Shown one piece after another: positions 1,312 through 19,171 of a stretch of DNA of 24,670 nucleotides. Numbering within the stretch: the first letter of the stretch is position 1; each line of letters opens with the position of its first letter. The notes beneath the pieces were generated by a model, which did not search any database, had not been told where the DNA came from, and saw nothing but the letters and a program-made list of their open reading frames with translations. The DNA is from a virus, in IMG/VR virus record IMGVR_UViG_3300008448_000607, positions 1-24,670 of that record. One strand, written 5' to 3'. The translations under genes were made by a program, and so were the position numbers.

Positions 1312-2298
1312 ATGAGCACACAAAACCCCATTGGATCAGCCATCGTTGACGAGATGCTGGCTAAGTACCCCGAACTCCCAAGCGCACAGTTGGCTCGCAT
1401 GATCTACGAGAACAACCCAACTGTCTTCACCAACCAAGAGGTGGTGCGGAGTGCAATCCGCTACCGTCGTGGAGCTAACGGCGACAAGAAGCGACAGGCC
1501 GCAGGGCTGGATGAGAACATCACTCCTAAGTACAAGATCCCGAAGTCCTGCACTCGCGCTTGGTCGCCATTCGTTATGGATGGCGTGGACAAGGTGGCTA
1601 TCCTCTCCGACATCCATGTCCCCTACCATACAGAGGAAGCCATTGAGTGCGCGGTGAAGCGTGCTAAGAAGCAGGAGGTTGATGGCATCATTCTCAACGG
1701 CGACACCATCGACTGCCATGCTCTTTCCCAGTTCATCCGTGACCCCCGCGCCCGATCATTCAAGCAAGAGCGGGAGACCACGAACGAGCTACTGGCCTAT
1801 CTACGGGAGCAGTTTCCTCATCAGCGCATTGTATGGCGCGACGGCAACCATGAGGACCGTTTCAAGGCTTACATGATGCAGAAGGCTCCCGAGGTGTATG
1901 ACGAGAAGTTCTTCTCTATCGACAAGCTACTCAACTTTGAGGATCTCGACATTGAGTATGTCACCGACAAGCGCATCATCATGCTGGGCGGCTTGGCCGT
2001 GATGCATGGGCATGAGTTCCACAAGGGATTCGCACCCCCGGTGAACCCTGCTCGCGGAGCCTACCTCAAGGCCAAGCAGAGCGTCATGGTTGGCCACCAC
2101 CACCGCACCTCAGAGCACACGGAAACGGCCCTAGACGGGACGATGACCACCACTTGGAGCGTAGGGTGCCTCTCGGACCTGCACCCCGCTTATAGCCCAT
2201 ACAACAGCTATAACCACGGGTCTGCCATCGTCACCCTAGACGGCAGCTATTACGAGGTGGCTAACTACCGTATCGTTAACGGACGAGCGTTGAACTAA
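1312..2298 (+). CDS. Calcineurin-like metallophosphoesterase with N-terminal helical region (328 aa)
   Basis: All metal-binding blocks of the calcineurin-like (Metallophos) fold are present in order: DIH (Asp100, His102), GDTID (Asp131), GNHED (Asn179, His180), MHGHEF (His232) and GHHH (His262, His264). The active site therefore looks intact with a two-metal centre. Residues 1-60 (ELPSAQLARMIYENNP, then an Arg/Lys-rich stretch) resemble a small DNA-binding-like helical domain ahead of the catalytic part. Phage members of this family hydrolyse phosphomonoesters or phosphodiesters, including nucleic-acid ends. The substrate cannot be read from sequence. It is the last gene of the plus-strand operon, and its stop overlaps that of the converging minus-strand gene. 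The ATG at 1312 has no strong Shine-Dalgarno site. Confidence 0.88.
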   Translation: MSTQNPIGSAIVDEMLAKYPELPSAQLARMIYENNPTVFTNQEVVRSAIRYRRGANGDKKRQAAGLDENITPKYKIPKSCTRAWSPFVMDGVDKVAILSDIHVPYHTEEAIECAVKRAKKQEVDGIILNGDTIDCHALSQFIRDPRARSFKQERETTNELLAYLREQFPHQRIVWRDGNHEDRFKAYMMQKAPEVYDEKFFSIDKLLNFEDLDIEYVTDKRIIMLGGLAVMHGHEFHKGFAPPVNPARGAYLKAKQSVMVGHHHRTSEHTETALDGTMTTTWSVGCLSDLHPAYSPYNSYNHGSAIVTLDGSYYEVANYRIVNGRALN

Positions 2299-5200
2299 CG
2301 GGGCGGATTCATCAAGAGGTTAAGCTGTGCGTTAACCACGGGCGTGATGATTCGCTTCTTGCGTAGATCTTCCAAGTAGGCAGTACGAACTAAGTCGTCT
2401 GGAAGAGTTTGTAGCTTCTGAAAGATAAAGCGGGCGCGGTCTCCGTCCGCTTCATCTTGAGCCAAGATTAGCTTATCTACAGCACTAATGTTTAGTGCCT
2501 TTGCTCGTAGTTCTGCACGGTAGCGGCTGGTTATTGCGCGAGCAAGGGTTGGGTTCTCTCGCGCAGCCTTTTCAACGGCAGCAGTTCGTTGACTTTCGGG
2601 GGTAGCTTCAATCCTCTCGTAGATGGTTCTTACTGGATTTGTGTCCTCGGTCGCTGGCGGAGTGTAGACCCCCGAAATTGCGGCCAGAACAATAGAACTC
2701 GGCACGCCCCCATCGGTCTTCATTAGTTTGACCAAATCATCATCCGTCATGCCAAGCGCACGACCATCTGCAACTAACTCAGATGCGCGACGGTAGGTAT
2801 TCTTGTAGCGTTCCTCAAAGGTCCTATAAGCATCTTGGGCATCTTTTTCGGTAAGAGCATTCTTACGAGCCGAAGAATACGAAATGCTATCGCTGGTGTG
2901 GTCGCGAGAAAGAATGGATGCGCCGACTCGCATACGGTTCCTGAGATTTACAGTCTTCTCACGGACGCCCATGAAGTTTTCCTTAAGCAAATCTCCAACG
3001 CCATAAACATCGCCAGAGGATGTCGTAACCTTGCGATCCTTGCTTTCAAGTACCTTGAAGAATTTATTCATCTCCCGGACAGCAAGAGGGGTAACGGTCT
3101 CTCCAAGGAACAAAGAAGAACGGGCAAATGCCTGTTTGTAGAGCGGGGCGTTTTCGCTGGATATGGGAAGGCCATAGCGATTCTTCCCGGTTGTAACCTC
3201 AGCAAGTGGTTCAAGCAACAGGTTCAGTCCAAGGGCTTGGCTTGAAACACTCTTCATGAGGTTGGTAAATGCTTCCTCTGGATTCTGTCCACGCATAGCA
3301 GCCTGCATTGCCTCAATCGAGGCGGCATGTGGTAGCAAATAATTAAGGTTCTGATATTTGAAAGTCCCGTCGGCAGATGGCTTAGAGATAGCAACAAGAC
3401 TGTTCTTGTCCCAGTCAGGCATACGATTGCGAAGTGCCTTTTCCTCTTCTTGAGTAAGGTGGGTATTGGCACCAAGATAGCTAGCAGAACCAATTACAGA
3501 ACTCATGCTAACCAACCGCTTGGCACCAGCCTTCATCAATGCCGGATTGCCAGATGCTAGTTCCTGCATTCCAAGGCGGTATGTGTTGTAGACAACACGA
3601 AAACGATCTGCGGTATAGGCTACAAATGGATCAAGGAATCCAATGCTAGAGGCATCCTTGATAAACTTGGGAAGCGCATTGTAGTTTGAAGAAACCATCT
3701 TGGTTTCATCTGCGGCGCGCTTCATCAAGACATTGATACTTTGATCGGGATAAGCCTCTCGTAGCTTACGCAGTTCCCCTTCAAAGATAAATACCTTCGC
3801 CATATTGTCTGGCGTAGAATAAATCTTGCCGAGCTTTTTAGTGACCGTCTTGAACCCAGACACAATATTGCCCTGCAATGCTTTGGGAATAGACTTTTCA
3901 CCAAGCTCCCAAGTGCGAAGAAAGTCGGCGTAAGAGGTATTGTCCGGCTGGAGCCCCTCACGAAGAAAGAACTTGTAAAGCTCTTTCATCTCTTTCCCAT
4001 CAACGCTACCATCTGGACGAACAACTCCTAGGTTATATCCTGTCAGTTTAGCCGCGCGGCCCCAGTTGCCAGTATTAAACAATTCCGAAACGTGTCCTTG
4101 GGCAAGTGGCTCAAGCGTGCCACCAATTACGTTGGTTGCATAAGCCTTCATCGAGCCAAGGGTTTTGAATGCCTTGAGAAAGCCAGAAGCTGCCGCAACA
4201 GGAGCCATATGCTGAGCCAGCTTGCTGACCATGCCAGAGTTGACGGACGCTAATGCATCGCGGATTTCTGGCGTGGTGTAAAGAGGCTGTCCCGTATTAG
4301 GATCCTTAAATGGATTAAAGCTCGACGTGTCCTTAGAGATGGGAACATCTCCACGCACAGAGTTAACGCGGAACAAACCTTCGCTAAGACCAATGTCTCG
4401 CATCTCACTAAGCACGTTATAGGTCGCTTGAGAGCGAGTCATCATTCCAAGAGTATTGCTAGCGACAAACACCGGATCGCGAATCTCTCCCAGCAATGCG
4501 CGGGTTTCGTCGTCAATATCCTTGCGACGCCTAAATGGATCTTTGCTTACGCGTACAGACTGTCCAGTTAAAAAGCGTTCCGCCTCTCCACGATCAAGCA
4601 GTTCATTTGCCCTATTGATGTACTTCTGGCGAAGATCAGCTCCGGTTTCTCGCCGTAGCTGTTCAGCGTAACTATTGGCATCAAAGGATGTTCCGGCAAT
4701 AGAGCTAGACACCTGACGCTCACGAACCTTTTCAGCAATCTCCTTTTCAACCTTGGTGTTTACGAAGTCATTAAAAATCTTCTCGCTTGGGGTGTAGTCA
4801 GTTTCAAAAACCCTATACGAGCGGCGATTGTAACTGCCAAGATTATCAAGAATTGCCTGATATAGCAGAGAGTCCTTATCAACCAAGCCACTCTCTCCGT
4901 GGTAAATACCAAGTTCGGCAATAGCAGTTTTAATCTTATCTACAGCAGAGCCAATTTCTGGAGGTAGGTCAGTTGGGGCGATCTCACCACCAAGTGCCAT
5001 CATTGCTCGCTCACCAATCGTATCTCTTTGAACCTTGTCCTTAATGTTAGAAAGACCGCGCTGCAATTCATTGATGGCAATATCTCCATCAACTGAAAGA
5101 GCAGCTTGCTCACCAGAAATGCGCTTCATATAGCCAGCCAACTTACCAAGTTGAGCTTCGGGAGTTTTGGCAATAGCTCCCGTAACAGCCTTCTCCGCAC

Positions 5201-5795
5201 CACCCAATAGTCCGCCAGTAGCTGCACCAAAAACAGTAGCCTTCAGGAACTCGTCTGGAGTTGGAAGACGATGCTCATCAATAACTGTCTTAGCGACCTC
5301 AGAAGCACCAGCAAGTCCGGCACCTTGAGCAGCACGAAGTCCCATGTTTTTAACAACAGAGCTTCCGGTCTTTGCAAATGTACTGCCGGGAATGGCAGAC
5401 AATCCGACGCTAGCAGCTAGTTCTCCGTATGAGAAGTCGGGGCGTTCGCCGCGCTGAATCTGTCCGCGTTGCACAATGACATTGCCAGCAGTTCCACCAA
5501 TGATGCCGCCAACCAACGCTCCAATGGGGATAGACGCGCCAAAGGTAGCGGGAGCTAAAGCTGCGCCAATGGCAGTACCAGCAATAGCACCGCCAGCCTC
5601 AATGCCCACATCTGCGGCAACCCGTGCCAAGCCTGACATTTCTTCGTCGGCTTGCTCGGCAGGCTGAGCTACTTGCTGAGAAACTGGAGAAACTTGTGAG
5701 AAGATTTCATTCATCTCCTCCTGTGTAGGCTCTCTATCTGCCGTTATTTCAATCGTTCGCCCAGTTCTATTGTCCCTAATTTCATAGGTTGGCAT
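2295..5795 (-). CDS. Very large internal-virion (ejection-type) protein candidate (1166 aa)
   Basis: This is the last and longest gene of the minus-strand operon. The N-terminus (PTYEIRDNRTGRTIEI, then PTQEEMNEIF) matches a short leader I have seen at the start of several large phage virion proteins. Residues 63-107 are a Gly/Ala-rich hydrophobic stretch that could insert in a membrane. The remaining 1000 residues are mostly helical and charged, with no obvious lysozyme, protease or polymerase motif. Size, last position in the structural operon and the membrane-active-looking N-terminus fit a protein ejected with DNA to form the trans-envelope channel in short-tailed phages. That role is inferred. 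The ATG at 5795 follows AAGGG about 9 nt upstream and lies 5 nt after the preceding stop. Confidence 0.7.
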   Translation of the reverse strand: MPTYEIRDNRTGRTIEITADREPTQEEMNEIFSQVSPVSQQVAQPAEQADEEMSGLARVAADVGIEAGGAIAGTAIGAALAPATFGASIPIGALVGGIIGGTAGNVIVQRGQIQRGERPDFSYGELAASVGLSAIPGSTFAKTGSSVVKNMGLRAAQGAGLAGASEVAKTVIDEHRLPTPDEFLKATVFGAATGGLLGGAEKAVTGAIAKTPEAQLGKLAGYMKRISGEQAALSVDGDIAINELQRGLSNIKDKVQRDTIGERAMMALGGEIAPTDLPPEIGSAVDKIKTAIAELGIYHGESGLVDKDSLLYQAILDNLGSYNRRSYRVFETDYTPSEKIFNDFVNTKVEKEIAEKVRERQVSSSIAGTSFDANSYAEQLRRETGADLRQKYINRANELLDRGEAERFLTGQSVRVSKDPFRRRKDIDDETRALLGEIRDPVFVASNTLGMMTRSQATYNVLSEMRDIGLSEGLFRVNSVRGDVPISKDTSSFNPFKDPNTGQPLYTTPEIRDALASVNSGMVSKLAQHMAPVAAASGFLKAFKTLGSMKAYATNVIGGTLEPLAQGHVSELFNTGNWGRAAKLTGYNLGVVRPDGSVDGKEMKELYKFFLREGLQPDNTSYADFLRTWELGEKSIPKALQGNIVSGFKTVTKKLGKIYSTPDNMAKVFIFEGELRKLREAYPDQSINVLMKRAADETKMVSSNYNALPKFIKDASSIGFLDPFVAYTADRFRVVYNTYRLGMQELASGNPALMKAGAKRLVSMSSVIGSASYLGANTHLTQEEEKALRNRMPDWDKNSLVAISKPSADGTFKYQNLNYLLPHAASIEAMQAAMRGQNPEEAFTNLMKSVSSQALGLNLLLEPLAEVTTGKNRYGLPISSENAPLYKQAFARSSLFLGETVTPLAVREMNKFFKVLESKDRKVTTSSGDVYGVGDLLKENFMGVREKTVNLRNRMRVGASILSRDHTSDSISYSSARKNALTEKDAQDAYRTFEERYKNTYRRASELVADGRALGMTDDDLVKLMKTDGGVPSSIVLAAISGVYTPPATEDTNPVRTIYERIEATPESQRTAAVEKAARENPTLARAITSRYRAELRAKALNISAVDKLILAQDEADGDRARFIFQKLQTLPDDLVRTAYLEDLRKKRIITPVVNAQLNLLMNPPR

Positions 5796-5800
5796 AGCTA

Positions 5801-7516
5801 TTAACCCTTGGACGGCTTAATCGTAGCGGAATATTGAAGGCCAGATGATGTTCTGCCAGATGCTTGATTAGCGGCAGATGGTGTAATTGGAACAACAAGG
5901 CCAGCATTCTGCTGCCGTCTGCTAGCTGGACGAAGCGAATTGATGTACTCTTCAAAGTTCATTACGGTTCCAGTAAGAGTATTGGTCTGAGGGCGCGTAA
6001 TGTAAGCCCTGCGAGCGCGCGCAACAACTTCGGGGTCAAAACTCTCAAGGGAATCTCCCTGAGAGAGCGCATCAACTAGCAAAGCAAATTCCTGAGTATC
6101 GTCATACTTAAGCTGCGAAACGCTAGGCGCGTTACTCTTAACCATTTCAAATGGAGCTCCGCCAACACTCACAAAAGTAAGGTTACCAGACTTAATGACG
6201 CGAACCTGATCCTGCGTCATCTTTTCGACATCAGCAATTACCTTGGGAGTAATCTGGCCCCCGCCCTTTTCATAAGCCAATAGAATCTTCTGGGCCTTTT
6301 CTGCTCCGGTTAGTGGGCGGTTAACCTTCTCTTCATAGCTGCGAAGCTCCGTCTTGTACTCTGGCTCAATAACAGAACGAACATTTCCTTCGCTTCGACC
6401 AGTAGCTTTAGCAATAGCACCGGAAATTTCATCAATGGGTTCAGCACCACTAGGCAGCTTACCAGCAGGAACTTCAAGCGGAGCACCAGCAAGTTTGCCT
6501 GCCTCAGCACTAAGTTGACTGAATTTTTTCTTGTCATCGACAATAGACTGATAATCAGCCTTAGCTTTATCATACTCCCTAAGAGTCATTTCGTACTCTG
6601 TTGAAGATAGTGGAACACGCTGTGGTGTCTTTGCGGCAAAGTCTCCACCAGCAGGACGGAGGTCTAGAGGATTAACAAACTTGCCAGTCTTAAGCGGTTG
6701 TTCCAATGCATCCATGCGACGCTTGGCTTCAAGTTCAGCAGTATTAAGTCGCTGCGTAGTTTGGTCGATCAAATCGGTGCGCAACGCATATTGACCTTTA
6801 ATAGTATCTGGAAAAAGGAATGGATCAAGGTTCGCAGGAATTTTGTTAGGCACATTGCCAACGGGAGTAGCTTGACTCGGTTGAGCCATTGGCTGTTCAC
6901 GCAAAAACGGAAACAGTTCAGGGCTCTGATTCATCATTGCCTCACGCTGCGTAACAACAGGACGTTCGACCGTTCGTGTATCTGAAATCGTAGTCGGAAG
7001 CCCTGAGATAGCAATACTCATTGCCTCAAGGTTTTTGCGCTCTTGCTTCTGTTGTGCCAATGCGTTCTGAGCGGACTCAAACTGAATATTACGAAGCGCG
7101 GCAATCGGAGCCTCCTTAAAGCCCTGATTGATTGTTGATAGTTCAACAATAGCTGCCTTGCGCTCGGCTGGGTCGGAACTATTAACTCGGCGATTTAGTT
7201 CGTCTATCTTGGCCTGATCTACCTTGGGAGCATTAATGTATAGATCCTTGGTAGTCTCATTTTTGGACTGTGCAATGTTTGTTTTAAGAGTGTTTATTTC
7301 TACGTTACCCAAGTTCTTCTCTAGTTTTTCCTCTTCCTTGTACTTTTGAAATCCTTGAATTGTTGAACCAGCAATTTGACCAAGGTTAGAGATGCTTTGA
7401 GCCAAAGCCGCATTGCCCTGTGCAGCAAACTGCTGGGCATTACTCATGCCTTGAAAAAGCGGTGAATAATCAATCCGGCCAAGATTTGCTTGAATGTTTG
7501 ATCCGATGCGTGCCAT
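5801..7516 (-). CDS. Internal-virion protein candidate (571 aa)
   Basis: The N-terminus contains GMSNAQQFAAQGNAALAQSI and SNLGQIAGSTIQGFQKYKEE, an Ala/Gln-rich amphipathic helix running into a charged coiled coil. This is a common opening of phage internal-core or ejection proteins. Residues about 185-260 are Pro/Gln-rich and probably a linker. The C-terminal half is helical, with a Ser/Thr-rich tail. There is no catalytic motif. It is encoded 5 nt ahead of the 1166-aa gene, so the two are likely co-translated and may form one complex. No convincing Shine-Dalgarno site precedes the ATG at 7516, and the preceding 71-nt gap holds no clear promoter. A role in the inner core or in genome delivery is inferred from context and composition. 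Confidence 0.68.
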   Translation of the reverse strand: MARIGSNIQANLGRIDYSPLFQGMSNAQQFAAQGNAALAQSISNLGQIAGSTIQGFQKYKEEEKLEKNLGNVEINTLKTNIAQSKNETTKDLYINAPKVDQAKIDELNRRVNSSDPAERKAAIVELSTINQGFKEAPIAALRNIQFESAQNALAQQKQERKNLEAMSIAISGLPTTISDTRTVERPVVTQREAMMNQSPELFPFLREQPMAQPSQATPVGNVPNKIPANLDPFLFPDTIKGQYALRTDLIDQTTQRLNTAELEAKRRMDALEQPLKTGKFVNPLDLRPAGGDFAAKTPQRVPLSSTEYEMTLREYDKAKADYQSIVDDKKKFSQLSAEAGKLAGAPLEVPAGKLPSGAEPIDEISGAIAKATGRSEGNVRSVIEPEYKTELRSYEEKVNRPLTGAEKAQKILLAYEKGGGQITPKVIADVEKMTQDQVRVIKSGNLTFVSVGGAPFEMVKSNAPSVSQLKYDDTQEFALLVDALSQGDSLESFDPEVVARARRAYITRPQTNTLTGTVMNFEEYINSLRPASRRQQNAGLVVPITPSAANQASGRTSSGLQYSATIKPSKG

Positions 7517-7587: not shown

Positions 7588-7977
7588 CTAAGATTTGGCT
7601 TTGCCTAGCTTCTGGGAGCAGAGAACATCGCTCTCTTGGCAGATAAGAAGCTCTTCTCCAACCGCTATATCCCTAGTGGCTACAATAACGGGTTCGCCAT
7701 TAAGAATGGCCTCAGATTCAGCCGCATTGGTTTCAGATTCGTTATCCGAAAAATTCCACCACCTAGCCAAGTCTCCGCAAATTGTTAGCGTCTTTGGTTT
7801 AAGACGGCAAACGTACCCAAAGTGGATTTGGGCTGGGGTAGCCTCGGCCAAATCAACCGATTGGTCTACTTCGGGGTTGAAGTAGTAGACAATCGTGTTC
7901 TTAGGAATTGGATCTAAAGCAAACAGCCCATTGCCATGCTTAGGGCTTTTCTTGGCCTCAACCCTTACTGTTATCAT
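7588..7977 (-). CDS. Divergent SET-domain protein (lysine-methyltransferase fold, 129 aa)
   Basis: The protein is essentially one SET domain. A GxG block (KHGNGLFALDPIPKNT, residues 13-28) is followed by WWNFSDNESETNA (73-85), in the place of the RFxNHSxxPN motif, and by ATRDIAVGEELLICQ (100-114), in the place of the xDIxxGEELxxDY motif. SET proteins transfer a methyl group from S-adenosylmethionine to lysine. Here the conserved His of NHS is Phe, and the Tyr that normally follows GEEL is missing, so activity may be altered. ATG 7977 is preferred; the frame also offers a TTG two codons earlier (7983). The start lies 20 nt inside the upstream PP-loop gene, so the two genes are coupled. It is the second gene of an accessory pair set between structural genes. 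The target is unknown. Confidence 0.72.
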   Translation of the reverse strand: MITVRVEAKKSPKHGNGLFALDPIPKNTIVYYFNPEVDQSVDLAEATPAQIHFGYVCRLKPKTLTICGDLARWWNFSDNESETNAAESEAILNGEPVIVATRDIAVGEELLICQESDVLCSQKLGKAKS

Positions 7978-8779
7978 CGCCAAAGTAGTCAGCAGCTATA
8001 CCTTGATACGGAATTTGGTCTGAGATGTTGCTGACTTGGCACTGTAGTTTAGGGCAGTAGACTGATTTTTCCTTACTGCGGCGATCAATGCATCTAATGC
8101 ACACATTGGCATAATCGCTATTAGTCCATTTGTCGTCCCATTCCTTCCTTGTGGACTGGTTGTATCTGTCCCATTGCTGAGGAATGGAATTGGCCTCCGT
8201 GTATGCCCAAATATCGTCATCCGTCCAATGGCGAAGCGGAAAGGCAAAATCTGGAATGCCGGGAGCATTCTTCTTAATGTCAACGTGCAGCTTAACGCTG
8301 CCAGCAATCTGGTCTACATCGCTCGACTTGTGACCAACAAACATCACGTCCCAAGGGAAGGCAAAAGAACCCTTAGGTCTATTAAGTACGTCTAAGCCGC
8401 AAACCCACTTCCTGCCAGCCTCAGGCTCTAAGATGTTCTTAGGCAGATTAAGAATGGCATTGTTTGCACTTCCAACCTGATAATGGTTGGTAAACGCCAT
8501 GATTTCCTTGCCTTCCCACATCGTGATTTGAGAGGGCGGATAGTCATACACTTCAAGACCCCAAGCATTGATTACCGAGTCAGCAAATTGGTACTTCTGA
8601 GGCCACCAAGGATCTCGATAGAAAACGATCTTTGGCTTAAATCCGTGTGAAACAAGAATGTGCAGCAACACCATGCTGTCTTTCCCAAAGGAACACAACA
8701 TGGCCGGATTTTTGTAATTAGCCAAAACCTTGCTAATTAAAGAAACGCTATCCTTAACTAAGTAGGGAGTGTCAGACAT
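7958..8779 (-). CDS. PP-loop ATPase of the PAPS-reductase-like family (273 aa)
   Basis: A PP-loop (SFGKDS, residues 30-35, variant of SGGKDS) opens an ATP-pyrophosphatase fold, and WTDDDIWAYTEANSIP (186-200) is typical of the phosphoadenosine-phosphosulfate-reductase domain. A four-Cys set (Cys227, Cys230, Cys242, Cys247) near the C-terminus could hold zinc or an Fe-S cluster. The ECGLH motif of genuine PAPS reductases is absent, so simple sulfate assimilation is not supported. Relatives activate substrates by adenylation, as in thiolation or phosphorothioation (DndC-like) chemistry. ATG 8779 is preferred, with an adjacent in-frame GTG at 8782. It overlaps the SET gene by 20 nt and starts 35 nt after the 857-aa gene, behind a possible TTGACA box. 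Confidence 0.78.
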   Translation of the reverse strand: MSDTPYLVKDSVSLISKVLANYKNPAMLCSFGKDSMVLLHILVSHGFKPKIVFYRDPWWPQKYQFADSVINAWGLEVYDYPPSQITMWEGKEIMAFTNHYQVGSANNAILNLPKNILEPEAGRKWVCGLDVLNRPKGSFAFPWDVMFVGHKSSDVDQIAGSVKLHVDIKKNAPGIPDFAFPLRHWTDDDIWAYTEANSIPQQWDRYNQSTRKEWDDKWTNSDYANVCIRCIDRRSKEKSVYCPKLQCQVSNISDQIPYQGIAADYFGDDNSKG

Positions 8780-8785
8780 CACTAT

Positions 8786-8814: not shown

Positions 8815-11388
8815 TTAGAAAATCCAAGCGGCTGCAACCATGCCTGTAGCAGTAAGTCCAGCACCAAGCAGACTCTTGTTGCCAGCCGACCTCTGAGCGG
8901 CGGCACTAATGTTTGCTCCTTGGATGCCTGCTTGGTAGTTAGCCAGATTCGTAGCATTGGCAAGGGCCAGATTGATGCCAGCGTCAGGATTAAAGACGTT
9001 ACCGCCAAGACCCTGCTGAGCCATACCAGTCAGATTCTGGCCCATAGCTACAGCGTTAGACGGGCGACCCAAGACAACAGACATCGGGTCAAACGCCGCA
9101 CCGTACATACCAACAAGGTTTTGCTGGTAGCCGCGATTCGCCGCCAACTCGCCCTGACGAGCCTGACCAAGAAGGGCAAGATTAGAAACGCCCCGTTGCT
9201 GTTGATCGGCTTGGAAGCCACGGTTTTGAAGGCCGAGGTTCGCCATCATCTCCTGATTGGTAAGGCCAACCTGCGTCTGCGTAGCCTGATTGGCTAGGGC
9301 AGTACGCATCGCAGCATCCAAGTTAGCTTGTCCAGCGACGTTAGTAGCCTGAGCACCAAACTGTGAGGCTTGGTTAAGGGCATCTAGGTTTGCCATGCCC
9401 ATCTGCTGCTGTGCTTGTTGGTTGGCAGCGGCCTGCTGCAAGAACGCCTGCTGATTGGCAAGGGTAGCTTGGTTGGCCGCGCTGGCCCCAAACTGAGCAG
9501 CGGCCTGCTGGGCCTCAAGATTGGCTAGGCCAAACTGGTTAGCAGCCGACTGATTGGACAAGCCGTACTGACCAAGCAAAGCCTGATTGGCTAGGTTGGC
9601 CTGCATCTGCGCTTGCTGGTTGGCTAGGGCAAACTGTGCTGCCTGCTGGGCGTTAAACTGTCCTGCCTGCATTCCGGCCTGCTGATTAGCTAGGGCAAAG
9701 CGAGCGGCTTGTTCGGCGTTAGCCATAGCCGCAGCGTTCTGCGCACCCGCACCAAACTGCGCTGCCTGATTGCCAGCAGCCATGTTAGCCAAGTTGGTCT
9801 GGGAGAGAACCCCCTGATTAGCCAAAGCAAACTGCGCTGCACGGTCAGCGTTTGCCATAGCAGCAGCATTCTGAGCCGAGGCACCAAACTGACCAGCCTG
9901 ATTGAAAGCAGCCTGATTAGCAGCAGCAGCCTGCATTTGAGCCTGCTGGTTCGCCATTGCGAATTGAGCCTGCTGTTGGGCGTTAGCCATAGCAGCCGCA
10001 TTACCAGCACTAGCACCGAATTGCGCTGCTTGGTTCATGGCAGCTTGGTCAGCCAGAGAAAGCTGACCAGCCATTTGCTGATTGCCCATAGCAGCCTGCA
10101 AGTTGGCCGCTTGGTTAGCCTGTTGCAGACCAAGATCCTGCCCATAGACGCCCGTAGCAAAGCCACGGCTAGCAGAAAGGTCGGCAAGGTAGGCTTGGTT
10201 GAGGGCCGAGGCTTGCTGGATGTCCTGAGCTTGACGTTCACGCACGGCACCCGCACGGGACATGGCTTCAGCAGCAATAGCCTGATTGCTCATCTCTAGG
10301 CCACGCGCAGCAAAGGCTTCACGGGTGGCTTGCTGGGCATTACGAAGCTCCTCTGGGGACAGTTGACCCGTAGAGGTAGCCATCTGCGCTGCACGCTGCC
10401 GGAAGGTTTCAGAGGCAGAGGTGGGCGCGGCGGTAAGAGCCTGTCCGTACAGCGACTGACCCAAAGCACCCTGAGCCACCTGTTGAGCAGCAACGTCAGC
10501 AACGCTACGAGCCTGAGCAGCTTGATAGCCCTGAGCGGCAACCGTGGGCGCAGCACCCAAAAGGGACGCCTGCATCTGCGCAGCCGTATACCCCTGCTGT
10601 TGAACAGTCGGAGCGGCACCAAGCGTAGCAGCAGCCGCACGTTCAGCACCAAAACCTTGCTGTTGCACCAAAGGAACAGCACCAGCCGATACTGCCTGCA
10701 TCGTCGGAGCAGCACCAGCCAAAGCAGCCTGAGCTTGCGGAGCAGCCCCAGCCATAGTGGCCTGACCCTGCGCTGCTTGAAATCCGCCAAGCGTTACAGG
10801 CTGAGCAGCCTGCTGAAGATTGGCCTGACCTTGAGCAGCCGTATAACCCTGAGCCTGCATGGTGGGGGCAGCACCAATAAGAGCAGCTTGCGCTGGCGTG
10901 ATGTTTACATCACCAAAAATGCGTGTATTGCTAAGAGCCGTCTCAAGGTCTTTAAAGGAATCCCTCTCTCCACCCATCGCCCGTGCAGCCTCAAGCTGGG
11001 CAAACATCTGGGGGTTGGCCTGCATGAGCGCAGACAGATAACCGCCACTCTGGCTCTGGAGGGCGCGGATGTCTGCATCACGCTTAAGCCGATCAGCCGT
11101 TTCCTGCGTAGCACTAAGCTGGGGAGTAATTTGGTTGATGATGTCAACCATTCCAGCCTGACCGGGGGTTCCACGCAGCGTCTGTTCAATCTCTTGAAGC
11201 GTTAGACCAGTAAACTGGGGACGATACTGCTGCTCCGCACCGAGCAACTTGCTCATGAAAGCAGGGTCAGACATGGCCGTGATGTAGGCCATCGACGCCT
11301 GTGCCGGATCTACTTGAAACGGATTGGCCGAGGTAGCTGGAGCACCCCTGTTGATGTTTTCAATCGGAATATCAAAGAGTTCGGCCAT
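8815..11388 (-). CDS. Ala/Gln/Asn-rich repeat protein, probable virion protein (857 aa)
   Basis: Residues 1-165 are ordinary mixed sequence (IPIENINRGAPATSANPF, then a helical part). Residues about 171-300 hold one repeat family, with variations of GAAPTVQQQGYTAAQ. Residues about 420-715 hold a second, with QAAQFGASAQNAAAMANA and FALANQQAQMQA-like units rich in Ala, Gln and Asn. Such spacing suggests long amphipathic helices or a rod. The last 20 residues (GAGLTATGMVAAAWIF) are hydrophobic and may touch a membrane. Cysteine and catalytic motifs are absent. It lies between the nozzle-like protein and the internal-virion candidates, so an ejected or tail-interior component is likely, though unproven. 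An extended -10 box lies just upstream. No Shine-Dalgarno site precedes ATG 11388. Confidence 0.72.
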   Translation of the reverse strand: MAELFDIPIENINRGAPATSANPFQVDPAQASMAYITAMSDPAFMSKLLGAEQQYRPQFTGLTLQEIEQTLRGTPGQAGMVDIINQITPQLSATQETADRLKRDADIRALQSQSGGYLSALMQANPQMFAQLEAARAMGGERDSFKDLETALSNTRIFGDVNITPAQAALIGAAPTMQAQGYTAAQGQANLQQAAQPVTLGGFQAAQGQATMAGAAPQAQAALAGAAPTMQAVSAGAVPLVQQQGFGAERAAAATLGAAPTVQQQGYTAAQMQASLLGAAPTVAAQGYQAAQARSVADVAAQQVAQGALGQSLYGQALTAAPTSASETFRQRAAQMATSTGQLSPEELRNAQQATREAFAARGLEMSNQAIAAEAMSRAGAVRERQAQDIQQASALNQAYLADLSASRGFATGVYGQDLGLQQANQAANLQAAMGNQQMAGQLSLADQAAMNQAAQFGASAGNAAAMANAQQQAQFAMANQQAQMQAAAANQAAFNQAGQFGASAQNAAAMANADRAAQFALANQGVLSQTNLANMAAGNQAAQFGAGAQNAAAMANAEQAARFALANQQAGMQAGQFNAQQAAQFALANQQAQMQANLANQALLGQYGLSNQSAANQFGLANLEAQQAAAQFGASAANQATLANQQAFLQQAAANQQAQQQMGMANLDALNQASQFGAQATNVAGQANLDAAMRTALANQATQTQVGLTNQEMMANLGLQNRGFQADQQQRGVSNLALLGQARQGELAANRGYQQNLVGMYGAAFDPMSVVLGRPSNAVAMGQNLTGMAQQGLGGNVFNPDAGINLALANATNLANYQAGIQGANISAAAQRSAGNKSLLGAGLTATGMVAAAWIF
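9289..10071 (-). repeat. Degenerate coding repeats, family B of the 857-aa protein
   Basis: The region encodes residues 440-700, a series of units built on (Q)AAQFGASAQNAAAMANA followed by AAQFALANQQ. Consecutive units differ by substitutions and small length changes. On the plus strand the recurring DNA word is tgattggctaggg and its variants. This is coding expansion, not a CRISPR or intergenic array. Confidence 0.8.
10489..10878 (-). repeat. Degenerate coding repeats, family A of the 857-aa protein
   Basis: The region encodes residues 171-300 with recurring GAAPT(M/V), QQQGY/QAQGY and TAAQ(G/M)QA elements, about 26-30 residues apart where best preserved. The family is unlike family B in motif and spacing, so the gene probably grew by two separate expansions. 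Confidence 0.7.
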
Positions 11389-15808: not shown

Positions 15809-16252
15809 TCAAGGCTTTGTGGGCCAAACTACATTATGCGGAAACCCTGCCTGAGAGGGAACATCGCGGAGAGCCTGACGGTAGGCCGTCCATTGAATCT
15901 TGGCGGTGTTGTCCAACGGCGTGTCGTTAAGCTGGGTCCAATCACACTCGGCCAACTTGGTATTGCGCTCGCGGCGCACTTGATCCGCCTTTTGCCTATC
16001 AATCTCGGCCTGCTCTTCGGGGGTATACGAACGCCAGAGCTTAGTCTCTACCACCTCGCTTGGAAGGATGGCAAATACCGAGCCGACAAACTTCTCTTGA
16101 ACATCACCTTCCTCTAAGCGGACGGGGAGCCAACCAAGCTCACGCAGGCTGTCATTGTCCAGCATATCGAGGCCAGAGATGTTTCGCCACGACTTAGGAA
16201 GTGCGCGGGGGCCATCGGTAATGACGCCGTTCTCAACAAGACAGTAGTTCAT
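15809..16252 (-). CDS. Phage tail-assembly chaperone-type protein (147 aa)
   Basis: The C-terminal 50 residues (CDWTQLNDTPLDNTAKIQW, YRQALRDVPSQAGFPHNVVW) are the hallmark of the phage tail-assembly chaperone family: RNxxLxxxDWTQ, WxxYRQxLRD and PxxVxWPxxP. The N-terminal half (MNYCLVENGVITDGPRALPK, then LGWLPVRLEEGD) matches the usual lead-in of the same proteins. These chaperones help fibres fold and attach. The start lies 20 nt inside the end of the sulfotransferase-fusion gene, so it is coupled to it, and it precedes the short fibre, its likely client. Confidence 0.85.
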   Translation of the reverse strand: MNYCLVENGVITDGPRALPKSWRNISGLDMLDNDSLRELGWLPVRLEEGDVQEKFVGSVFAILPSEVVETKLWRSYTPEEQAEIDRQKADQVRRERNTKLAECDWTQLNDTPLDNTAKIQWTAYRQALRDVPSQAGFPHNVVWPTKP

Positions 16253-18005
16253 GGGAATAGTTTAGGCTCTTAATCTGTTCAAAAGGGTGGGTCCAGTCGC
16301 CGTACTTCTGCTGGCGAAACAACCGCATAGAGTTGTAATAGGGCGTCTGGTCGCCGGGTTCGGCATACAGATAATACCCCATAATTGGAATGACAACCCA
16401 AGTGGGGATACCCATTGCTGCGGACAGGTGGCTTACGGACGTGCAGCTACTGATTACGAGGTCGCAGGAGCTTACCGCCTTGTGCGTGTCGTGCCACGTC
16501 TGAAGGGGTACGTCCTGCACCCAGCTAGGCTTGTGCTCTAGGTCGGCATCCCGCTGGAGGGAGATAAACTCCACGTCGTCTCGCTTGACGGCATCAAAGA
16601 ACAATTGGGCCGGGAACAGCTTGTGGTGCTGGGCCTCAAACTGCTTGTTGCCCGACCAACGAAGCCCTACCCGTAGCTTCTTACCGGGAACATTGAAGTC
16701 GGTGTTGATGTATGCATCTCCTCGGATGGATCTGCGGTTTAGCCCAAGGTAGACAGGACCGGACATCCCAGCCATCCAGTAGTCGTGATAGACCCCGTAC
16801 TCTGCCCCATGCTGCACTACGGCATCGGCTAGATCCGTAGACGCAATAAACGAAACAAGCTCCCCAGAGCAGCTAACAATCGGACTGAAGCCGTTGGAGC
16901 GGAGTTCGCGGGTGTAGCGCACCTGATGCAGTTGATCGCCCAAGCCGCCCTCTAGGTGAAGCAGGATAGTTTTGCCGCTGCGCCCATCCCACTCAGCCTG
17001 CGGGGTATTAGGCTGGCTGTTGCCAAAGACGCCTACCTTGCGCCCACGGTGGAGGAGCTTGTAGCCCTCTTGGATGTTGCCGTCTCGCAGTTCGTACCAA
17101 CCTCGGTTGTAGGCTGCGCGGTGGTCATTGGGGCGTTCCACCTTGAGCTTATCGGCAATGCGCTTACCATCGTCGAATTTGCCCATTGTTGACGCTGCAA
17201 GCTGTACGTCGAGGTCGTCTAGTGGTGCAATGGTGCGCGGCTTAGGAAGCCAAAACTCAGGCTGACAGAACTGACTGTAGTGGTAGCCGAGAACATCCTT
17301 GGCTGACTCATTGTGCTGCCGAGCCAGCTTAGGCTTAATGTCGTGCAAGCCAGCTACGCCATGAATGCCCTCGTCATCCTCCTTGACAGTAGAGCCGTCA
17401 ATGCGCTCTAGATCGTACTCAAACGGATCAAGACCAAGGAAGTCATGGATGCGGTTAAGCTGGGTGCGCGGATTGGCGAGGAGGTCTTCGTACTCTACAA
17501 ACAGAAAGCACTCTGGCCGAAATGAGTAACCATCGTGCAGCGATTGATACGCTGCCTTCAGATGCTTCACTAAGCCGTCGTTGTTAACAAACTCATCCAA
17601 ATTGGTTGGCTTGGCTACACGGACAAATGAAGCCATGCAGTCTGGAATGCTGCGAACGGTTGCTACGATGCGAGGAGGTTGTCCAAGCACTTGTTCCATT
17701 GCCGACAGAACCTCTGGCATCGGCCACCCACGTCCCTTGTCAATCACTACTGGCTTATCCGTATCAAAGAACGAATCAATGACTGAGCGCATTGCCAAGA
17801 CTAGCTTGGCGCGGCTCGGATCGTTTTTCCCAAGAAGCTCATGCTTATGCCAGCCAACGGCTAATGACTCAAGCGCAAGGCCAAGCCCAGAGGTCGTCGT
17901 GACATGAGCTTGCGGATTCTGATTAAGAATCGCAGCTAACACCGTTGAGCCAGAGCGTGGAAGGCCAGAAAGGAAGTGAAGTTTCCTAGACAAGTTGTTG
18001 CTCAC
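16233..18005 (-). CDS. Sulfotransferase - TPR - glycosyltransferase (GT9-like) fusion (590 aa)
   Basis: Residues about 8-250 form a PAPS-dependent sulfotransferase: GLPRSGST (14-21) is the 5'-phosphosulfate loop, and VRSIPDCMASF (117-127), with Arg118 and Ser126, is the 3'-phosphate site. Residues about 265-325 resemble a TPR pair (HRAAYNRGWYELRDGNIQEG). Residues about 345-575 look like a heptosyltransferase-type glycosyltransferase: LHLEGGLGDQLHQVRY, VGLRWSGNKQFE, CDLVISSCTSVSHLSAAMG, then YNSMRLFRQ and YGDW. One chain could thus add both a sugar and a sulfate to a glycan or protein. The GTG start has an AAAGG site 5 nt upstream, inside a possible hairpin. It sits between fibre genes, so decoration of the fibre or of the host surface is the natural hypothesis. 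Confidence 0.85.
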   Translation of the reverse strand: MSNNLSRKLHFLSGLPRSGSTVLAAILNQNPQAHVTTTSGLGLALESLAVGWHKHELLGKNDPSRAKLVLAMRSVIDSFFDTDKPVVIDKGRGWPMPEVLSAMEQVLGQPPRIVATVRSIPDCMASFVRVAKPTNLDEFVNNDGLVKHLKAAYQSLHDGYSFRPECFLFVEYEDLLANPRTQLNRIHDFLGLDPFEYDLERIDGSTVKEDDEGIHGVAGLHDIKPKLARQHNESAKDVLGYHYSQFCQPEFWLPKPRTIAPLDDLDVQLAASTMGKFDDGKRIADKLKVERPNDHRAAYNRGWYELRDGNIQEGYKLLHRGRKVGVFGNSQPNTPQAEWDGRSGKTILLHLEGGLGDQLHQVRYTRELRSNGFSPIVSCSGELVSFIASTDLADAVVQHGAEYGVYHDYWMAGMSGPVYLGLNRRSIRGDAYINTDFNVPGKKLRVGLRWSGNKQFEAQHHKLFPAQLFFDAVKRDDVEFISLQRDADLEHKPSWVQDVPLQTWHDTHKAVSSCDLVISSCTSVSHLSAAMGIPTWVVIPIMGYYLYAEPGDQTPYYNSMRLFRQQKYGDWTHPFEQIKSLNYSHELLSC

Positions 18006-18049: not shown

Positions 18050-19171
18050 TTATGACTTTAAACCCCAAGATGAACCCGGTGTCCCAGCAGCAACAAAACT
18101 CCATGTTGCTAGTGCGCCAACTTGAACTGGAGAAGAACGATTAGATGCAACGCCAGATCCAAGCGCACCACCTGTTCCTAGGCCCCAAGACCACAACGTA
18201 TTGTCTGTTTTTACTGCAAGTACATGATTTGGGCCGCAAGCAATGTTTGAAGACCAGTTCGTCAGTAATCCAATTTGTTTTGGAGAAGAATAGTTTGTGG
18301 TATTTCCTAGTCCAAGCTGACCATACCCATTGTATCCCCAAGCGTAAAGTCTTCCAGAGTTTCCTACTGCTAATGAATAACCATCTCCTCCAGCAAAACA
18401 ATGAGTCCAGTATGTTTGAGTTCCAACTTGGACAGGAGATGATCTATTTGTTGTGTCGCCAAGACCAAGTCGTCCATCACTGTTTTTTCCCCAAGCCCAA
18501 AGCGTTCCATCTGTTTTAATTGCAACAGTATGCGCCTCGCTGCAATCTATTTTAGACCAATTAGTTAGAGAACCAATTTGTTTTGGAGAAGAGTAGCTTG
18601 TAGTGTTTCCTAGCCCAAGCTGACCAATACCGTTAGCACCCCAAGAATAAATTGCTCCTGCCGTTGTAATTGCAAATGCACCTGCACTCGACGCAGCAAT
18701 GTTTGCCCAATTCGTATTCGACCCAATTTGTACAGGAGATGAGCGATACGTTGTATTGCCTTGCCCAAGTTGCCCAGATGCGTTTTGACCCCAAGCCCAA
18801 AGGGTTCCGTCTGTTTTTAAAGCCAATGTCCAGTTGCTTTCACTAGCAACAACCTTGGCCCAGTTTGTAAGTGCTCCTACTTGTACTGGCGAAGAATAAT
18901 AGGTTTGATTAGAAGTTCCAAGCTCCCCTTGGCTATTTCTTCCCCAAGCCCAAAGAGTTCCATCGTTTTTTACAGCTAAAGCAAAATACAGCCCTCCAGT
19001 AACACTTGACCAGTTAGTCAATGAACCAACTTGCGCAGGAGATGAACTAGAAGTAGTTGTACCATTTCCAAGTTGTCCAAATTGGTTGTTACCCCAAGAC
19101 CAAAGCTGGTAACCGGGAACACCACCAGCCCCAGCCGCACCCATCGCAAGTTTGATAACGTACGGGTCCAT
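18050..19171 (-). CDS. Seven-blade RCC1-repeat beta-propeller protein (373 aa)
   Basis: After a Gly/Ala-rich leader (MDPYVIKLAMGAAGAGG) the protein is made of seven RCC1-type repeats. Each has the form LW(A/S)WGxNxxGQLGxGNTT, then SSPxQ(V/I)G, then a strand ending in (L/V)A(L/V/I)K(T/N)DGT. Seven repeats are the number needed to close one propeller. The start is 2 nt after the TAA of the 477-aa fibre gene. RCC1 propellers bind proteins or other ligands; here the position between two fibre-module genes suggests a virion or host-binding component. The base composition is much lower in GC than the adjacent fibre gene (two counted 60-nt lines 35-37% against 62% in one fibre line), which suggests recent acquisition. 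Confidence 0.9.
   Translation of the reverse strand: MDPYVIKLAMGAAGAGGVPGYQLWSWGNNQFGQLGNGTTTSSSSPAQVGSLTNWSSVTGGLYFALAVKNDGTLWAWGRNSQGELGTSNQTYYSSPVQVGALTNWAKVVASESNWTLALKTDGTLWAWGQNASGQLGQGNTTYRSSPVQIGSNTNWANIAASSAGAFAITTAGAIYSWGANGIGQLGLGNTTSYSSPKQIGSLTNWSKIDCSEAHTVAIKTDGTLWAWGKNSDGRLGLGDTTNRSSPVQVGTQTYWTHCFAGGDGYSLAVGNSGRLYAWGYNGYGQLGLGNTTNYSSPKQIGLLTNWSSNIACGPNHVLAVKTDNTLWSWGLGTGGALGSGVASNRSSPVQVGALATWSFVAAGTPGSSWGLKS

Follow-up and report, generated by a model that had tools for sequence, protein, structure and literature searches.

Among the described systems closest to the locus studied here, DndC is an Fe-S protein of the PAPS-reductase family with an analogous cysteine set (PMC12193691), and CysH-like proteins without the catalytic cysteine have been proposed to adenylate a substrate (PMC8175902). 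Mobile elements carry PAPS-like genes of unknown role (PMC11437467), and in Burkholderia Lessievirus a more distant PAPS-like gene lies in a comparable slot, between virion proteins and near a giant DarB-like gene; the mass-spectrometry virion list of JC1 has both flanking proteins and not the PAPS-like protein (PMC9144972). In MW202711, a 'reductase' adjoins an internal virion protein. For SET enzymes, the final Tyr of the ELxF/YDY motif is catalytic and the NHS histidine contacts SAM (PMC6054832). No SET partner was seen in the annotations of the Lessievirus, MW202711 and mobile-element (PMC11437467) PAPS-like cases, and our literature search found no paper combining SET domain, PAPS reductase and phage, nor any that describes a PP-loop/SET pairing, as the original prediction had supposed. 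Searching the cultured phages of INPHARED (tblastn) gave no match to either protein of the pair reported below, with only weak matches for diverged members of their families.

The window, a 24,670-nt stretch of the IMG/VR record IMGVR_UViG_3300008448_000607, encodes both proteins on its minus strand as an overlapping pair. A 273-aa PAPS-reductase-like PP-loop ATP-pyrophosphatase gene runs from an ATG at 8779 to a stop at 7958 (a GTG is present at 8782) and matches PF01507 PAPS_reduct (E=9e-10, 39.3 bits against a curated Pfam cut-off of 22.5), while a 129-aa SET-fold gene runs from an ATG at 7977 to a stop at 7588 (a TTG is present at 7983) and matches PF00856 SET (E=1.9e-6, 28.7 bits against 22.4). 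Their overlap, as predicted, is 20 nt (7958..7977, minus strand); its length varies in relatives (20, 14, 14, 8, 8 and 4 nt) and its presence is kept. Both genes are under purifying selection, with dN/dS of ~0.05 for the PP-loop gene and 0.05-0.27 for the SET gene, and therefore neither is a chance ORF. Between the window and its near relative L004, dS is 0.72 for the PP-loop gene and 0.18 for the SET gene, with the opposite trend against L001; this discordance across 7588-8779 is a sign of recombination inside the overlapping pair, and thus of alleles that recombine separately.

The pair sits, as had also been proposed, between a repeat-rich 857-aa protein and internal-virion candidates. The upstream gene (8815..11388, minus strand) encodes the 857-aa protein, homologous to the upstream genes of both PP-loop+SET and PP-loop-only phages and, judging from its position, ejection-protein-like; its Gly-rich hydrophobic end, mostly closing in A/I plus L/F, recurs in PP-loop+SET, PP-loop-only, Lessievirus and P22-like contexts. 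The repeat-rich middle of this protein (window 9427-10820) is hypervariable in close relatives, at ~70-80% identity with differing repeat matches between flanks that are ~90-96% identical on both sides. Downstream on the same strand, position again suggests probable internal virion proteins of 571 aa (5801..7516, with homologous downstream genes in L008, L010 and L068) and 1166 aa (2295..5795, with a weak LPD38 match only). An overlap of 1-4 nt between the stop of the upstream gene and the gene that opens the slot is common.

To evaluate how widely the pairing is conserved, we drew on IMG/VR. Single-protein scans returned 12 PP-loop and 7 SET relatives, and in five more distant PP-loop relatives (57-61% identity) an overlapping SET gene came next in all five. 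Profile scans extended this to 80 PP-loop contigs, and additional SET queries brought the distinct SET contigs to 34, every one of which has the PP-loop gene adjoining SET (in L167 the PP-loop gene is cut by the contig end), although the SET query patterns were drawn from paired members and very diverged unpaired SETs would be missed. The order is PP-loop then SET in 17 of these contigs and SET then PP-loop in the other 17, always inside the virion block, and the linkage holds across PP-loop identities down to ~40% and through the order change. The predicted co-occurrence of both genes in other phages is hence well founded, in both orders. The implied strictly coupled two-step system fared worse: no SET hit lies nearby in 54 of the 80 PP-loop contigs, many of them fragments (18 of 28 clusters at 85% identity), and a PP-loop-only gene is found in the same slot between homologous virion genes. 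Since most PP-loop relatives do without SET, the core function does not depend on it.

We then asked how the SET gene came to this position. A maximum-likelihood tree built from 32 PP-loop proteins has a branch that separates the 13 rows with SET from all others (support 85/84, not starred). The SET-first group is strong (100/99), and two changes account for all tree labels; the SET gene was thus probably acquired once, with one later gene-order change. A single acquisition would make the pairing one lineage's long-kept linkage rather than repeated convergence. In one lineage the content of the slot has been exchanged. L010 (PP-loop+SET) and L068 (PP-loop only, placed elsewhere on the tree) are 76-86% identical in DNA on each flank of the slot, reaching into about the first 107 nt of the PP-loop gene, with no identity detectable across the remaining cassette. 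Just past the SET stop, L011 carries SEQLR*AARMDLVYMRQ*, in which the C-terminus of a PP-loop protein of the L068 type (SEQLRWAARMDPVYMRQ*) is recognizable in decayed form, L068 being the best match among 27 C-termini (score 68 against a maximum of 44 in 200 shuffles); this scar (L011:7001-7090) is the decayed 3' end of the replaced PP-loop gene. From the flanks and the scar together it follows that a two-gene cassette replaced a one-gene version in that lineage. After SET in the window, no replacement scar rises above shuffles.

In the PP-loop protein, the motif SFGKDS (residues 30-35; 8675..8692, minus strand) falls at an SxGKDS that is invariant in all 27 relatives of alignment A3, as are four candidate Fe-S ligands on the same strand, namely Cys127 (8399..8401) and the cysteines of Cys227-x2-Cys230-x11-Cys242-Pro243 (8054..8101). 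All four cysteines, Cys127 included, are retained in the distant bacterial relatives L115 and L116. Sequence and fold matches extend to CysD/ATP sulfurylase, APS/PAPS reductase, FAD synthase and the Fe-S tRNA thiolases TtuA and NcsA. From these motifs, we interpret the protein as resembling Fe-S sulfur-transfer or adenylating enzymes rather than PAPS reductase, and as probably carrying out an ATP-dependent adenylation, with sulfur transfer on an Fe-S cluster likewise probable. In the structure model the N-terminal domain alone is reliable, and the putative cluster geometry falls in a low-confidence C-terminal half (mean pLDDT 61).

Turning to the SET protein, the fold is clear and the active site is altered. 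The structure model (pLDDT 86) matches solved SET domains at E ~1e-7 in Foldseek and at Z ~10 in VIA-align (~100-115 residues at 2.4-3.2 Å in most rows), and PF00856 matches 19 of 19 SET relatives. In a joint alignment of 20 phage members with 40 SET proteins from Pseudomonadota genomes, Asn75-Phe76 (7750..7755, minus strand) stands where the NHS motif has Asn-His, with N-F in all 20 phage SETs and N-H in all 40 bacterial ones. The Tyr of the EE[LI]xxxY motif, present in 40 of 40 bacterial SETs, is found in none of the 20: the window reads GEELLICQESD (7627..7659, minus strand) where the canonical form is GEELTxDY, and GEELTI-xx-ESD-like ends replace the Tyr motif in most phage SETs. The Asn of NHS and the GxG region near the N-terminus are mostly retained (HGNG in the window and GxG in most members; HNQG in L033, L035 and L094). 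The anticipated resemblance to a lysine methyltransferase therefore applies to the fold and fails at the active site, so that we rejected a canonical lysine methyltransferase as the identity of this protein. Loss of His and Tyr in every member, with the fold under purifying selection, argues for a non-canonical SET role.

Other enzymes occasionally take the neighboring position. In L087 the gene that overlaps PP-loop encodes a class I methyltransferase, and in an apparently chromosomal locus of a gammaproteobacterial MAG (L115:3980-5882) another begins 4 nt after the PP-loop relative. Together with SET, these methyltransferases hint at a methyl-transfer theme, each being a single case. The L115 methyltransferase has an Rv2258c-like winged helix, and a sodium:solute symporter adjoins that locus. 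In L040, the PP-loop gene shares 4 nt with the gene of a 343-aa protein (L040:4768-5799) that resembles Sulfotransfer_4 weakly. Evaluating 53 neighbors of PP-loop-only genes against Pfam revealed no recurrent partner, the one methyltransferase found being that of L087. Further along the window, a 590-aa protein between tail-type genes (16233-18005) carries a sulfotransferase domain at its N-terminus (Sulfotransfer_3, 3e-15) and looks glycosyltransferase-like by eye in its C-terminal part, and in the tail gene region a 373-aa protein of RCC1-like repeats (LWSWGxNxxGQLG; 18050-19171) is possibly a receptor-binding protein.

For the pair in the window, the constant association of an altered SET protein with its PP-loop partner suggests an undescribed molecular modification. 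The explanation that we favor, held tentatively and at somewhat less than an even chance, is a swappable late modification module in the virion operon of uncultured podovirus-like phages, with the PP-loop enzyme as its core and the SET-derived protein as an accessory. The core would bind ATP at SFGKDS, adenylate its substrate and probably transfer sulfur via a cluster on the four invariant cysteines. That substrate would be a late product of infection, be it the nucleic acid of the progeny or the ejection proteins encoded on either side. The SET gene, which a subset of these phages presumably gained in a single event and which now invariably accompanies the PP-loop gene, would encode a protein that has kept its fold, lost its lysine-methylation residues and more likely assists the PP-loop enzyme, whether as a substrate-specificity or SAM-binding subunit or as a methyltransferase for a non-lysine acceptor such as the PP-loop product. 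A specific form of the last option, in which the Tyr-less SET methylates a non-amine acceptor, e.g., a thiol or thiocarbonyl installed by the PP-loop Fe-S enzyme on phage nucleic acid or an ejection protein, we consider improbable; if true, it would amount to a sulfur-then-methyl modification with a SET-fold S-methyltransferase, and we know of no described enzyme of that kind.

Other readings place the pair in different biology. A two-step anti-restriction modification, in which phage DNA would be thiolated or altered in some other way by a PP-loop protein working like DndC, with the SET-like protein completing the reaction so that progeny DNA escapes host nucleases, is possible though on the unlikely side. 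DndC itself is an Fe-S protein that belongs to the PAPS-reductase family and has similar cysteines (PMC12193691), 3 of the 27 family members match the DndC model TIGR03183 weakly (best 1.2e-5), the exchange of cassettes at one fixed position looks like diversification driven by defence, and the more distant PAPS-like gene of cultured Lessievirus lies close to the DarB antirestriction gene. However, those DndC scores are far under the model cut-off (290.4 bits), the hhalign match between DndC and the PP-loop family spans only 42 columns, and PADLOC gave no defence-family match. The cysteine spacing differs as well. Alternatively, SET could be a working protein methyltransferase, acting on lysine or another residue of the ejection proteins, with the PP-loop protein separately activating the same protein. 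The coupling of both genes to ejection-type virion genes, the clear SET fold (Z ~10) and the mostly retained GxG region and NHS Asn would fit, but the NHS His and catalytic Tyr, both present in 40 of 40 bacterial relatives, are gone from all 20 phage SETs, and we think this quite unlikely. An unlikely reading too, though less remote, is that there is no functional link, SET having landed by chance beside a moron gene and stayed by inheritance. The single acquisition on the tree, the lack of SET beside most PP-loop relatives and the separately recombining alleles would all be expected on that account; linkage that persists in all 34 contigs despite wide divergence (PP-loop identity down to ~40%) and an order change speaks against it, as does purifying selection on the SET gene.

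The two readings drawn from sulfur metabolism have far less in their favor. Genes such as this are often catalogued as cysH AMGs (PMC12713726), and the Pfam and PHROG labels of the PP-loop protein would likewise suggest an auxiliary gene for sulfur assimilation, a true PAPS/APS reductase feeding host cysteine synthesis. Yet the C-terminal motif ECGxH, which holds the catalytic Cys of CysH, occurs in 0 of 27 phage PP-loop proteins and in 8 of 8 bacterial CysH compared, and the NCBIfam CysH score is 30.7 bits against a cut-off of 154; CysH was accordingly rejected as its identity, and with the catalytic cysteine missing the sulfur-assimilation reading is already contradicted and very improbable. 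Hardly more credible is a CysD-like sulfate activation supplying the phage-encoded sulfotransferase (16233-18005). CysD is indeed the best NCBIfam match and the window does encode a sulfotransferase-domain protein, but the CysD scores are far under their cut-offs (43 bits against 195; 40.5 against 396.6), and CysN occurs in 0 of 39 records searched, some of which may be fragments, with control genomes positive. Of 48 relatives searched, just 2 have the phage sulfotransferase itself; a link between it and the PP-loop gene was rejected, and the absence of co-occurrence leaves the CysD reading already weakened.

The locus has wider relevance. The 'sulfur-assimilation' label of phage PAPS reductase genes is probably wrong for this PP-loop family, which has no catalytic Cys and sits in an ejection-protein block. 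The remodelled SET partner offers a concrete handle, in that the system is small, with two genes, and phages with PP-loop alone in that slot provide a natural control. And should DNA or the ejected proteins be its target, the system would give phages a new means of altering what enters the next host.

Compared with known systems, the phage SET protein is nearest to minimal SETs (PBCV-1 vSET and the ~125-aa bacterial L172 and L173) in fold and in its similar size, whereas the bacterial minimal SETs compared retain NHS and the catalytic Tyr; in the phage family the NHS site reads N-F and the Tyr is missing. DndC, like the phage PP-loop protein, belongs to the PAPS-reductase superfamily and has a comparable motif (SGGKDS), with four cysteines holding a 4Fe-4S cluster (PMC12193691); it differs in length, the two DndC proteins compared having 409 and 588 aa, in Cys spacing and in giving a weak profile match. 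The Cas-associated CysH-like protein of type IV-B CRISPR systems, likened here by its description, also has no catalytic cysteine and a proposed adenylation (PMC8175902), but works beside a Csf ribonucleoprotein, unlike the phage PP-loop protein. The PAPS-like 'moron' of Lessievirus (DC1 gp65, JC1 gp65, BcepIL02 gp67) is only weakly related in sequence, at ~23 bits to the A3 profile, and differs in its CC...CxxC arrangement and in having no SET partner in the annotated neighborhood, but, like the pair in the window, it occupies a slot upstream of the giant internal protein.
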